Shown here piece after piece: positions 3,547-10,622 of a stretch of 48,655 nucleotides of DNA. Under the pieces are notes generated by a model. It saw only the letters and a list, made by a program, of their open reading frames with translations. It was not told the DNA's origin and ran no database searches. Position 1 is the stretch's first letter. Every line of letters begins with the position of its first letter. The position numbers and the translations under genes are program-made. The DNA comes from an uncultured bacterium. Lineage in GTDB: Bacteria > Bacillota_I > Bacilli_A > Acholeplasmatales > Anaeroplasmataceae. Location: NCBI GenBank assembly GCA_949291115.1, contig CASETY010000002.1, positions 74,348 to 123,002 on the forward strand. Reading direction: 5' to 3'.

Positions 3547-6500
3547 TTAGAATTTTTGTAACATATTTTGAATATTTTTATAAACGCTCTTACACCAAGG
3601 TACTACATATTGTAACAATTTCATTAATGGAGCCGCAATAAACATAAGGGCTAACAATAACAATATAGCTGATGTAGAAAGTTTTTGAACAATACCACCG
3701 GTTGTTGTAACAGTATTAACTTTATAATCAGTTTTTACACCATTAATCGTTAACATACCATCATCAGTAACATCTAAAGAAATAGAGCTGCCTCCACCCT
3801 CTAATGTTTGTTCATATTTAGTATATGCACCATTTATAACATAACGACCTGCTACCGATGTTTCAATTGGTGGAATAATAGCTTCTACATCTGTTTCGAT
3901 TGGTTCTGTTATTTGAGATATTGAAATTATATATTTTTGACCTCTAGCAGTAACATTAAGATCACTAATATTTGCTACCCCTAGTGTATTTAAATTAGCT
4001 TCTGTTTTATAGCCATTAATTACAAATTCATTATTTTCATTAAATGAATAAGTTGGTTCTGCCACTTTATAAATAGCACCTTTGTAGGTAATTGTTTTAC
4101 CATTAATTAATAATTCATAATCTTCATTAATAGAAACACTAGTGATTTCTTCATTCCATACATAATCAGTATCAGCATTATCAATATAAATACGATTATT
4201 TACAACTGTAACTTCTGGTAAAATTGAATAATCTAATTTATGAACAACATCTGCTAAATTAGGATCTTCATCTACTTCAATTAAAGAAACATAACCTTCA
4301 CTATCTACACTTATTTTTAAATTAGTGTTTTCATCAATAAAGTTCTTAATGTTAGTATCATAACCCTTTAAATAAACATTTTTATCTTCATCTATACTAA
4401 TTAAAGGTGGTTCAATTTTATAATCAGTTGTATGCCCATCGATTACTAAATAGCCATCATTAGTAACTGTTGTATTAAATGTATTATCTGGCTTAGTATC
4501 TAAAATATTAGAAAGCATACCATCGATAACATAATAACCACCATCACTAATAGAAATAGCTGGTGTTTCTTCAATTGTCGTAATATTTACATTATCTGAA
4601 TAATATTCAACAAATGAGAATATTGGTCTAAATTCAAAGAAATTAGGAATCGCAATTGTTAAGATAACAAATAAAGAATAAGAAACACCGCATATTACTT
4701 TTCTTAATAAATTATATGGTCTACAAACCTTAAATAAAACTAATAAACAGGTGTGTGTAGCTAAAATAACAATAATTGTTGAAGAAGTTATAAAATCACT
4801 ATTTAAATAATTTACAACTTGGAAAGCAACAACTGAACATAAAAGAATCGTAACTGCCCCTGGTAAGGCTCCTTTTATGACATTAATTAAGAACCTACCA
4901 CTTACTCTATTATTATTAGGTTCTAATACTAAGAAGAATGATGGAATCGCAATAACTAAAAAATCAATCATCATTAATTGATTAGTAGAGATTGGATAAG
5001 CACCACCACTATTTAAAGCTTGAATAGCTAATAAAAAACTAAAAATAGTCTTCGTTAAGAACAAACAAGCAACCCTTGAAACATTATTAATAACTCTTCT
5101 ACCTTCAGCCACAACTTTAGGCATTGAACCAAAGTTAGAATCCATCAATACTAAGTGACTAACATTGCGAGCTGCTTCACTACCTGAGGCAACCGCAATT
5201 GAACAATCAGCTTCTTTTAAGGCTAAGATATCATTAACACCATCACCAGTCATCGCAACTGTTTCACCAGCTTGTTTCATTGTACGAACTAAAATACGTT
5301 TTTGATTTGGAGAAACACGGCCAAAAACTGTATATTTAGTAGCTGCTTGTTCCACTTCTTGGTCAGTTAAACCATCTAAAGAAATGTAATTTTCAGCCCC
5401 TTCAATACCAGCTCTTTGACTAATCTTGGAAACAGTTAATGGGTTATCACCAGAAATAACTTTAACCGTCACACCACTACGTTTAAAATAATCAATTGTT
5501 TCAATCGCATCTGGTCTAATATTATCTTCAATCAAAATTAAAGATACAACTAATGGAGTTTCCTCTGGTAATTCACCATGATTAATACCCTCTTCAAAGT
5601 GAACAAGTGATAAAACACGATAACCTTGTAAAGCATATTTTTCAACATCTTTTTTGACTAATTCATAATGTTCTTTTAAAACAAATTCAGGAGCACCTAA
5701 GGCAAATGTGCCAAAACGTTCAAAAGTAACAGCGTTATATTTTCTTTGACTTGAAAAAGGAATAGTTGTCTTAAACTTCAATTTCTTCTGCAAGCCAAAT
5801 TTATCTTCTAAGGCTTTAGCGGTTAAATTAGTTTCATGTAAAGCATTTAACATAGCACTAATAATATTTTTAGTAGGTAGGCCCCCAATTGAATTATATT
5901 CAACTACATTTTGAACACTCATGGTACCATCAGTAATTGTACCAGTCTTATCTAAACATAAAGTACTTACGCGCGCTAGCATTTCAATACAATATAATTC
6001 TTGAACCATTACATTGTTTTGGGCCAATCTAATAACACCAACAGCTAAAGCTACGGATGATAATAAGTATAAACCAGATGGAATCATACCAATCATCGCC
6101 CCTGCTGTTTTTCTAACAGCTGTTACATAATCTACACCATTAACTTTATATTGCATCAAGAATAAAGTTACACCAACAGTTACGACTACCACAGCCATTA
6201 CATAAATAATCCAATTTAATGACTTTAATAAATCGCTCTTTGGTTTTTTATAACTCTTAGCTTCACCAGATAACTGTTCAATGTAATTATCCTTACCAAC
6301 TTTTTCTACTTGAGCTTTACATCTACCACTGACCACAAAAGAACCACTATATAAACTATCACCATTCTTTTTTACAATCGCATCACTTTCACCAGTTAAT
6401 AAAGATTCATTAACTTCAATACTACCTTCAACAACAATCGCATCAGAAGGAATCTGTTTGCCAGTTTCTAGTAATAAGATATCATCTAAAACAACCTCAT

Positions 6501-7251
6501 TGACAGGAATTTCTATTTGTAAACCATCTCTTATAACAATGGCTGTAGGTGCTTGTAACAATGACAAACGATCAATTGTCTTTTTAGCTTTAATTTCTTG
6601 TAAAATACCAATAACCACATTTAAGGTGACAATAACCATAAAAAATAAATCCGTAATGGCATTTACAGAAATTAGCCAACCAGCAATCACAACCATTAAA
6701 ATATTAAAGAAAGTAAAAACATTAGAAAAAATTATTCTCTTAATTGATTTTGAAGAACCATTATGGGTATTATTTTGATAACCAAGTTCAATTCTTTCTT
6801 CTACTTCTTTAGTACTTAAGCCTTGTTGTGGGTCTGTTTTACTTCTAGCAAATGCTAGTTTACCACTTTCAATAGCTTTTCTTTTCGCTTTAATTTCTTT
6901 AAGATGTTTTTTATCTTCTTTAAGCTCTATTTTTGAAGATTCTTTTTTAACCTCTTTTACTGGTAAAACTTTATCTTCTTCTTTAGAGTCAACAGTTTCA
7001 TTTTCAAAATTAATAACAGTTGTTTTTTCTTTAACTTCTTTAGTTTCTTCAATGTTATTTTTTGTTTCCACTTTTTTATTTGTCAGATCTTCTTTAATGA
7101 CTTTTGATTGTGGTTTTTCTTTATTTTCTACCTTTACTATCTTTTCTTTTACTTCAGTAGTTTTAGGTTTGGAAGTCTTTTTAGGAGCAGTTTTAACTTC
7201 CGTTTTATTTTCATCTTCAACAATAAACTTTGTATTATTTTTTTGAGCCAT
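3547..7251 (-). CDS. P-type cation-transporting ATPase with a large extracytoplasmic repeat domain
   Basis: A 1,234-residue P-type ATPase with the catalytic set TGES (about residue 286), phosphorylation motif DKTGT (434), TGDGVND (668) and an M4 motif IPSGL (about 390). The overall look is closest to the CtpE-like Ca2+-type group; the substrate is not proven. I place ten membrane helices at about 172-196, 200-220, 345-367, 378-410, 725-745, 756-777, 793-815, 820-840, 848-873 and 1190-1215. Two unusual parts: a Lys/Glu-rich, probably disordered N-terminus of about 125 residues, and about 290 residues of degenerate beta-type repeats (core like GYLVIDGHTTDYK) between M9 and M10, which topology puts outside the cell. 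ATG at 7249-7251 is preferred, one base after the mrnC stop and 8 bases from AGGGGG; a GTG at 7258 is the alternative. Confidence 0.9.
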   Translation of the reverse strand: MAQKNNTKFIVEDENKTEVKTAPKKTSKPKTTEVKEKIVKVENKEKPQSKVIKEDLTNKKVETKNNIEETKEVKEKTTVINFENETVDSKEEDKVLPVKEVKKESSKIELKEDKKHLKEIKAKRKAIESGKLAFARSKTDPQQGLSTKEVEERIELGYQNNTHNGSSKSIKRIIFSNVFTFFNILMVVIAGWLISVNAITDLFFMVIVTLNVVIGILQEIKAKKTIDRLSLLQAPTAIVIRDGLQIEIPVNEVVLDDILLLETGKQIPSDAIVVEGSIEVNESLLTGESDAIVKKNGDSLYSGSFVVSGRCKAQVEKVGKDNYIEQLSGEAKSYKKPKSDLLKSLNWIIYVMAVVVVTVGVTLFLMQYKVNGVDYVTAVRKTAGAMIGMIPSGLYLLSSVALAVGVIRLAQNNVMVQELYCIEMLARVSTLCLDKTGTITDGTMSVQNVVEYNSIGGLPTKNIISAMLNALHETNLTAKALEDKFGLQKKLKFKTTIPFSSQRKYNAVTFERFGTFALGAPEFVLKEHYELVKKDVEKYALQGYRVLSLVHFEEGINHGELPEETPLVVSLILIEDNIRPDAIETIDYFKRSGVTVKVISGDNPLTVSKISQRAGIEGAENYISLDGLTDQEVEQAATKYTVFGRVSPNQKRILVRTMKQAGETVAMTGDGVNDILALKEADCSIAVASGSEAARNVSHLVLMDSNFGSMPKVVAEGRRVINNVSRVACLFLTKTIFSFLLAIQALNSGGAYPISTNQLMMIDFLVIAIPSFFLVLEPNNNRVSGRFLINVIKGALPGAVTILLCSVVAFQVVNYLNSDFITSSTIIVILATHTCLLVLFKVCRPYNLLRKVICGVSYSLFVILTIAIPNFFEFRPIFSFVEYYSDNVNITTIEETPAISISDGGYYVIDGMLSNILDTKPDNTFNTTVTNDGYLVIDGHTTDYKIEPPLISIDEDKNVYLKGYDTNIKNFIDENTNLKISVDSEGYVSLIEVDEDPNLADVVHKLDYSILPEVTVVNNRIYIDNADTDYVWNEEITSVSINEDYELLINGKTITYKGAIYKVAEPTYSFNENNEFVINGYKTEANLNTLGVANISDLNVTARGQKYIISISQITEPIETDVEAIIPPIETSVAGRYVINGAYTKYEQTLEGGGSSISLDVTDDGMLTINGVKTDYKVNTVTTTGGIVQKLSTSAILLLLALMFIAAPLMKLLQYVVPWCKSVYKNIQNMLQKF
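3706..4563 (-). repeat. degenerate protein repeats in the ATPase M9-M10 loop
   Basis: About nine to ten units of 20-35 residues share the pattern hydrophobic-x-hydrophobic, acidic/Asn/Gly turn, then Y/F/L-x-I-[DN]-G-x-x-T-x-Y. Clear examples are GYYVIDGMLSN, GYLVIDGHTTDYK, YELLINGKTITY, NEFVINGYKTE, RYVINGAYTKY and GMLTINGVKTDYK. Spacing is irregular and DNA identity between units is low, so the repeats are old. The pattern resembles short beta repeats in bacterial surface proteins and phage fibres (inference). Confidence 0.7.
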
Positions 7252-7252
7252 A

Positions 7253-7630
7253 TTAGACACCCCCTAAAATAGCATTTAATAAATAATCTATTCTTTCTAA
7301 GGCTTTATTTAAGTATAAATAACCAATTAAAGCCTCAAAACCAGTTGCATTATGATAGGTTTGTAAATCAACTTTTCTATGACTTTTAACCGCACTATTA
7401 CGCCCTTTTTTATATATTTCAGTTTCTTCATCTGTTAATAAATCATTATTAATTAAATAAAATATATATTTTTCTTGAGCATAAGAATTAACGTGGGTAG
7501 TCACAAACTTATGAATGTCTTTAACTTTAGTAAGCCCTTTTTCTAAGGCTAAATTACGAATTAAAAGTTCATAATAAGCATCTCCGATATAGGCTAAAGT
7601 CATCCCATTATATAGTTTTACATTTACCAT
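7253..7630 (-). CDS. mrnC: mini-ribonuclease III
   Basis: RNase III catalytic domain without the double-stranded-RNA-binding domain; in B. subtilis it matures 23S rRNA ends. The 125-residue product has the signature LAYIGDAYYELLIR with catalytic acidic residues near 15-20, the family motif GRNSAVKSHRKVDLQTYHN near residue 77 and the second acidic motif FEALIGYLYL near 98. Its ATG overlaps the cysS stop by one base (TAATG), so the two are translationally coupled, as in Bacillus. Confidence 0.95.
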   Translation of the reverse strand: MVNVKLYNGMTLAYIGDAYYELLIRNLALEKGLTKVKDIHKFVTTHVNSYAQEKYIFYLINNDLLTDEETEIYKKGRNSAVKSHRKVDLQTYHNATGFEALIGYLYLNKALERIDYLLNAILGGV

Positions 7631-9002: not shown

Positions 9003-10622
9003 TTAAGCTACTTGTCTGCCATTATATTGTTTTAAATAATCTTTATAACAAGTGATATTAATTTTAATATCATTATTACTTGCTTCATCTTTTTCGTTAT
9101 AATCGCGATTACCAAATAAAGAACCAACATTAATACTATAAGTTACATTTTCTTCTTTATTTTCTTCATTATAACCTAAAACAGTCATACTTACTACGTT
9201 AGCTTCACCATTAATACGGCCATCATTAGTATTACCAACTAAAGCGCCTACATAAACATTATACACTGGAGTAGCTTCAACATTAATTGCACTAACAACC
9301 TTATCAACTATTGAATTATCTTCATTTGTAATAGTTTTTGTTGTTTCATTTACTGTAGCTTTAACATTATTTAAACTAGACGTGCTATTTGGTACTAATT
9401 CTCCCGCAAAACCACCAACATTTAAATTATAAACTTCAAGACCAGCTTCATAAGTAGCGGCACTACTCTTAACGGCTTTAATATCAATATTACCAGTAAA
9501 AGTCGAATTACTAATTGTTCTAGCTAAAGAACCAACAAAGCCGCCAATATTATAATATACATCTTCTTTAGTATTAGTTTTAACATTTAAATTAATTGTC
9601 ATATTAACATTAGCGTTATTATTAGTAATTTCTTGAGGTGTTCTAGCAGATTTTGGTTTTTGAACAATACCTATAAACCCACCAACATTAGCGGCTAATA
9701 CCGCATCAGCTTCTAAAGTTACATTTTCTAAATTAGAATTAATTACTTTAATTCCTTCTTTACTACCATCAACATAACCTACTAAACCACCAACATTAAA
9801 GTTATATAAGATAGAATAGGTGGTAGTTTCAACATCTAAAGAACTATTTTTAACTGTACAATTATCTACCACACCTTTATTCCAACCAACTAATAAGCCA
9901 GCATAAATAGATGAAGAACGGCTAACTGTTAAAGTCATATTATCAATAATTAAGTTTTTAATTGTACCTTCATTATAGCCAAATAAACCAGAATATTGAT
10001 TGTTTGAAGAAATTTTGAAATTCTTAAGAGTATGACCATCACCATCTAAACTGCCTTTAAAGGCTTGAGAAACAGATGTAAATAATGGTTTAATCTCTGA
10101 ATTTTCAAAATCAATATCAGCACCTAATTTATAATAACCTTCCGTATCATAAGCAAATACATTTAAAAAATCATCTTTATTATTTATTACAATTGCAGTT
10201 TCTTCACTTGAACCTTCATTAGTTGTTTCAAAAGAAGTTTCATATAAAGTATAATTATAACTTTCAATTGTCGCTTCTAAACGTAAATAATAAGGTGTTA
10301 ATTCATCTAAATCAGTAAAATTTACTACTTCAGCTTTAGTATTAATATCAACAGAAGTGCCTTCTTCTAATTCTAATTGCTCAGAATCTACTTCGTCACC
10401 TTGTTTTTCATCTTCATATTCATAAATATATAAGACAGGTTTAACTGAACTAAAAATACGTTTATCAGGATCTAAAAATTCAATATTAACTGATACACTA
10501 TCACGATGTGGTGTAACTACCACATCTACTTTAATATTATCAGCTTTGTTGTTATTACAAGCTGCTAAACCTGTAACTACTAAAGCTAATAAAAAAATTA
10601 AGAAAACCTTTATTTTATTCAT
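9003..10622 (-). CDS. surface lipoprotein with Fn3-like domain and GLUG-type repeats
   Basis: Predicted exported lipoprotein: a signal peptide with lipobox LAAC puts the lipid-bearing cysteine at residue 22. Residues about 33-130 look like a fibronectin type III-like beta domain ending in LTPYYLRLEATIES and LYETSFET. From about 150 the chain has GLUG-type repeats typical of secreted right-handed beta-helices: FKGSLDGDGHTLKNF, YSGLFGYNEGTIKNLII, YAGLLVGWNKGVVDN, NVGGLVGYVDGS, NVGGFIGIV, NIGGFVGSLARTISNSTF, NVGGFAGELV, YVGALVGNTNDG and NVGSLFGNRDY. No enzymatic motif is visible; adhesion or surface display is inferred. Ribosome-binding site GGAGG and its own promoter precede it; the gene is monocistronic and divergent from the activase operon. 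Confidence 0.85.
   Translation of the reverse strand: MNKIKVFLIFLLALVVTGLAACNNNKADNIKVDVVVTPHRDSVSVNIEFLDPDKRIFSSVKPVLYIYEYEDEKQGDEVDSEQLELEEGTSVDINTKAEVVNFTDLDELTPYYLRLEATIESYNYTLYETSFETTNEGSSEETAIVINNKDDFLNVFAYDTEGYYKLGADIDFENSEIKPLFTSVSQAFKGSLDGDGHTLKNFKISSNNQYSGLFGYNEGTIKNLIIDNMTLTVSRSSSIYAGLLVGWNKGVVDNCTVKNSSLDVETTTYSILYNFNVGGLVGYVDGSKEGIKVINSNLENVTLEADAVLAANVGGFIGIVQKPKSARTPQEITNNNANVNMTINLNVKTNTKEDVYYNIGGFVGSLARTISNSTFTGNIDIKAVKSSAATYEAGLEVYNLNVGGFAGELVPNSTSSLNNVKATVNETTKTITNEDNSIVDKVVSAINVEATPVYNVYVGALVGNTNDGRINGEANVVSMTVLGYNEENKEENVTYSINVGSLFGNRDYNEKDEASNNDIKINITCYKDYLKQYNGRQVA

Follow-up and report, generated by a model that had tools for sequence, protein, structure and literature searches.

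A P-type ATPase of Anaeroplasmataceae carries surface-type beta repeats in its M9-M10 loop, an insertion gained independently in two lineages

Few membrane machines have been studied as thoroughly as the P-type ATPases, and where these pumps carry a large mass on the outer face of the membrane, it is usually a separate subunit. An initial annotation of the window (the whole 48,655-nucleotide stretch of DNA analyzed here, from an uncultured gut bacterium of the Anaeroplasmataceae, related to Anaeroplasma) described a pump built otherwise, in which degenerate repeats in the external M9-M10 loop would form a built-in surface module, perhaps for ion capture, cell-wall anchoring or sensing. The locus therefore raises the question of whether such a pump is real and complete, where its repeats lie, how they were acquired and what they might do, which we addressed by computation.

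The pump gene, recognized from its reading frame and from Pfam and NCBIfam matches, is a single open frame (3547-7260, reverse strand, as are all pump features below) that has a GTG start and an ATG at codon 4 and encodes an intact P-type ATPase of 1,237 residues. As the initial annotation had stated, the catalytic motifs TGES, DKTGT (5938-5952, with the phosphorylation site at D437) and GDGVND, the last conforming to the superfamily pattern GDGxND, are all intact in this one frame, and they are accompanied by A, P, and N domains. Pfam identified E1-E2_ATPase, the HAD hydrolase domain, and Cation_ATPase_N, and the Pfam/NCBIfam class is that of a cation-type P-type ATPase, with no single equivalog cut-off reached. 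An AlphaFold2 model of residues 128 to 1237, computed with 34 sequences (mean pLDDT 80, pTM 0.59), displays ten transmembrane helices, the number that defines the type II membrane domain. Its Foldseek neighbors include Pma1, SPCA1, Listeria LMCA1, MgtA, and SERCA, and the matches to the whole protein were pumps only. Together, these data identify the protein as a complete ten-helix cation-type P-type ATPase. Pfam, AlphaFold2, and Foldseek delimit a core comprising the A, P, and N domains and M1-M9 (4606-6855), in which M9 covers residues 851 to 870 (4651-4710); M10 and a basic C-terminal tail occupy residues 1196 to 1236 (3553-3675). The charged, K/E-rich N-terminal tail (residues 1-135; 6856-7260), which lies mostly outside the model and is shorter in several outgroup pumps, is probably cytoplasmic and disordered.

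Between M9 and M10, AlphaFold2 places an all-beta insert of about 305 residues (residues 886-1191; 3688-4605), also modeled on its own (pLDDT 85.5) and delimited by alignments; the span first given for the repeats, 3706-4563, corresponds to residues 900 to 1185. The insert contains eight recognizable three-stranded units and two divergent hairpins. The original count of nine or ten units was thus close, the remaining two being hairpins. Each unit consists of a strand, an acidic turn, a strand, a "DG" or "NG" turn, and a strand (PxIxIS-dG-YYVI-DG-xxTDYK). When the insert was scanned with a unit profile from which the window's genus had been left out, six units scored above 5 bits, the best at 28.8, while none of 500 shuffled sequences had more than one unit above 5 bits and their top score was 9.0. 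Read from M9 onward, the insert begins with unit 1 (TPAISISDGGYYVIDGMLSNIL; 4501-4566; 22.5 bits, with its strands in the model) and unit 2 (TVTNDGYLVIDGHTTDYK; 4417-4479; 28.8 bits), followed by the degenerate unit 3 (ISIDEDKNVYLKGYDTNIK; 4345-4401; -0.8 bits), a divergent hairpin (4273-4323), and the degenerate unit 4 (LPEVTVVNNRIYIDNADTDYV; 4159-4221; -0.9 bits). Unit 5 (SVSINEDYELLINGKTITYK; 4081-4140; 5.1 bits), unit 6 (PTYSFNENNEFVINGYKTEAN; 3994-4056; 16.2 bits), and the second hairpin (3883-3960) lead to unit 7 (PPIETSVAGRYVINGAYTKYE; 3811-3873; 20.5 bits), which is relatively well conserved, and to unit 8 (LDVTDDGMLTINGVKTDYK; 3721-3777; 22.2 bits), the best-conserved stretch of the insert. 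Units 3 and 4 and both hairpins are visible in the model only, as three-stranded patterns and paired strands, respectively.

Comparisons with characterized domains gave no confident match for the insert. Pfam found nothing in the window insert, and Pfam and PHROGs yielded weak matches only across the inserts. Against the PDB and viral models, no structural match reached E<=0.001; local resemblances to propeller blades had TM scores of about 0.1-0.16 and large rmsd. A beta-propeller was rejected as the global fold on account of these scores and of the three-stranded units, as against a closed ring of four-stranded blades. Because no solved structure matches the insert globally with confidence, the fold itself gives no function. 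A sequence search of solved structures with the insert or its units likewise returned nothing significant; the best match was FibU of phage 80alpha (E=0.057), and the part of FibU matched by the unit has no density in the phage structure.

On which side of the membrane does this domain lie? M2-M3 and M4-M5, the catalytic loops, have to lie in the cytoplasm, which puts the M9-M10 loop outside; with M5-M9 following these two loops in the ten-helix model, the insert is predicted to face outward. The occurrence of the same unit in exported proteins supports this location independently of the model. It is found in lipoproteins with lipobox-like signals, some of them with collagen-like stretches, in ApbE lipoproteins, in an amidase-like protein, and in 80alpha FibU, directly after a collagen-like segment (PMC7048315). 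In the bacterial proteins of this set, as in the window insert, the profile match to the xGxWxIDGxxT surface unit exceeds that of shuffled sequence. The pump-insert unit, which is common in these genomes, is thus an exported surface repeat. The exported carriers (lipoproteins L118, L173, and L175, ApbE-type L119-L122, and FibU) share the signature xGxWxIDGxxTxxxA with the pump insert, are exported or sit on a phage fiber, and in several cases adjoin collagen-like stretches; they carry one or two units, whereas the pump has about eight in series. Structure prediction and the repeat profile therefore bear out the suggestion of an outward surface module in the M9-M10 loop, the repeats being predicted outside and not in the cytoplasm. 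As for individual carriers, L118 and L175 contain the unit HTPVITIGENGNWYIDGVDTN, and L118 also has collagen-like GxxGxx stretches, with Pfam matches to the Collagen-flanked surface repeat and, weakly, DUF4988. The ApbE-type lipoproteins L119, L120, L121, and L122, all from the same genus, have one unit copy (PTIEIKDGYWYIDGRN) inside the domain and represent another case of this unit placed inside an enzyme.

A first scan of the genome contigs with a single protein as the query gave no match. The survey of related genomes that the initial annotation had proposed revealed the full insert in 30 of 36 Anaeroplasmataceae genomes, counting the window's own and the type strain of a cultured species, Anaeroplasma bactoclasticum ATCC 27112. 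Among the others, one pump ends at a contig end just where the insert begins (G020), one has a short M9-M10 loop (G013), and four genomes were not assessable (G006, G010, G011, and G035); a single assessable member of the family thus lacks the insert. Its length ranges from 282 to 495 residues. We rejected a fusion of two genes by sequencing error, and likewise an assembly artefact, on the grounds that the same one-frame layout recurs in 30 independently assembled genomes and the type strain. In other families of the order, the M9-M10 loop measures about 10-25 residues. With or without the insert, the pump gene lies between mrnC and rlmB (cysS-mrnC-pump-rlmB) in an operon that begins with cysS and extends to nusG, and the insert was therefore gained in place. 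Adjoining cysS, the window also encodes a lipoprotein (9003-10622, reverse strand) that occupies this place in most Anaeroplasmataceae loci at 26-42% identity; it is present in the insert-free locus L125 and was not seen in L086 or L087. A second, more distant pump paralogue exists in three genomes (L050 in G010, G020:C42, and G038:C21). L050 has no M9-M10 insert, with 259 residues after GDGVND.

A class-wide search with the pump core turned up four genomes from another order whose pump frames are longer, three from genus g136 and one from g102 (family f19). Their inserts, of about 260-280 residues, occupy the same M9-M10 loop and contain units such as NGYWYINGKDTNIKA; no such long frames were present in the other genera of that family where the pump was found. 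The core-gene tree demands two state changes, both forced by supported branches, with no losses seen inside the carrier clade, and the AU test rejects a single insert-carrying clade (p=8.45e-7). The insert was therefore gained twice, independently, at the same loop. We rejected the idea that the second insert arrived by transfer of a whole gene, as the pumps of the second group nest within those of their own family. We consider with moderate confidence that the repeat units of the two lineages are related: hhalign between their profiles, with units picked by hand, gave a probability of 96.8, and searches with the second-lineage profile reached both a pump of the first lineage (E=4.1e-4) and an ApbE lipoprotein (E=2.1e-7). 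Plain HMM scans between the lineages were near noise (best 3-14 bits versus shuffle maxima of 5-10), and a phage search with the second-lineage insert gave no match.

Once acquired, the insert has diverged faster than the pump that carries it. In close pairs, it exceeds the core in dN by a factor of about 2-13 although their dS values are similar; dN/dS is below 1. One of these pairs, L019/L020, is a recombinant one. The same two genes, from two species of one genus, were analyzed at the nucleotide level as L059 and L085. Along a tract at 5914-7393 (L085 numbering) they differ at 8 of 1480 positions, compared with 516 of 5547 outside it (Fisher p about 1e-43). This tract consists of the insert (6160-7311) plus the M8-M10 edges, and both of its flanks, which differ by about 9%, lie on the same contigs. 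The pattern likely reflects a recombinational replacement of the insert almost alone, although it could conceivably stem from a mis-assembled metagenome bin. On the strength of this one event, related species appear to exchange the insert by recombination. Relaxed constraint would likewise be compatible with fast divergence at a dN/dS below 1.

What, then, does the insert do? Because the same kind of repeat was added twice at the same spot and appears to be exchanged by recombination, it probably serves the cell in some way at its surface. We favor, by a modest margin of belief, a module for surface interaction or shielding. About eight three-stranded units of exported-surface type, inserted into the outward loop, would lie away from the ion path (M4-M6) and leave pumping largely unchanged, while binding a variable external partner (a glycan, matrix, or another surface protein) or shielding the pump. 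Both the rapid divergence and the swapping of inserts between species would then follow from variation in that partner or from phage or host attack. A bolder version, which we put forward only tentatively, is that a primary ion pump was twice independently turned into a surface receptor or adhesin, part of which is exchanged between species like a surface antigen. If true, such a pump-receptor fusion would be a kind of P-type ATPase with no known earlier description. The main rival to a surface module is a built-in regulatory subunit that folds onto the outer face and tunes the cycle, assembly, or stability of the pump, as the Na,K-ATPase beta subunit or KdpC does. Gain at the same loop in two lineages, retention by all assessable family members but one, and the position of the best-conserved unit next to M10 would all suit such a role, and outward subunits are a known theme among P-type pumps (PMC10654040). 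We nonetheless regard it as rather unlikely, since a length spread of 282 to 495 residues and fast divergence are unusual for a docked partner and orthologues in the same operon do without the insert.

If the M9-M10 loop takes insertions free of cost, common coding repeats might simply have landed there twice and persisted by drift, in keeping with an insert dN well above that of the core and with the abundance of the unit in these genomes. This passenger scenario seems improbable to us, since 30 genomes preserve both the open frame and the pattern of units, dN/dS is below 1, and no losses were seen inside the carrier clade. We give slightly less credence still to the capture of ions or ligands, whereby the insert would concentrate the transported cation or sense solutes outside the cell in its vicinity. 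The insert does have an acidic composition (50 D/E versus 18 K/R), and the similar pump CtpE has been described as a Ca2+ uptake system in Mycobacterium smegmatis (PMC5615198), but no conserved metal-binding motif was found in the insert alignment and the acidic residues fall mostly in variable turns. A tether to peptidoglycan is the least credible of these roles. PBP transpeptidases are encoded by some carriers (G009, G022, G303, G225, and G258), yet none were detectable in others (G000, G001, G004, G021, and G162); the carriers without them include the window's own genome and A. bactoclasticum (G021). Carriers without these enzymes disfavor wall anchoring, and we rejected it as the common role of the insert. 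Within the Anaeroplasmataceae, PBP transpeptidases are present in G009, G022, and G013 and not detected in G000, G001, and G021, suggesting a mixed cell-wall status in the family.

With the outward mass built into the pump itself, experiments can ask whether an ion pump also serves as a receptor or shield at the surface, and the insert offers a natural system for studying how outer loops affect the pump cycle. Among known systems, the pump resembles the CtpE/P6 ATPases (family 23), with which it shares ten helices and the P-type motifs. In the literature, the P6 family is marked by PEGL in M4 and by an isoleucine in place of the M6 aspartate, and it is reported from Firmicutes and Tenericutes (PMC5615198, PMC10654040). 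The window pump has the isoleucine (Ile770; 4951-4953), at the position equivalent to SERCA D800 as counted from the shared M6 proline, and thus, like CtpE, a hydrophobic residue where Ca2+ efflux pumps have an aspartate. In M4, by contrast, it reads PSGL (6070-6081), where CtpE and Ca2+ pumps have PEGL. PSGL or PAGL occurs in pumps of families f1, f2, f3, f4, f5, and f19, across the whole clade, and the loss of the M4 glutamate is therefore older than the insert; the sole PEGL in the f1 tally appears to come from the second paralogue mentioned above. By these motifs we describe the window pump as P6-like without filing it as a member, and its substrate may differ from that of CtpE. The insert of about 300 residues is its own feature relative to this group. 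Its insert-free orthologues (L086, L087, and L125), which have the same gene order and 58-67% identity to the pump core, have a short M9-M10 loop without repeat units. Short searches of the open-access literature brought up no account of a pump with an outer-loop repeat insert, although a negative of this kind counts for little. The Na,K-ATPase beta subunit, Cdc50 of P4 ATPases, and KdpC likewise provide substantial protein mass on the outer face, but they are separate, unrelated polypeptides, whereas here the outward mass is part of the catalytic chain itself, gained twice at one site and apparently exchanged between species.
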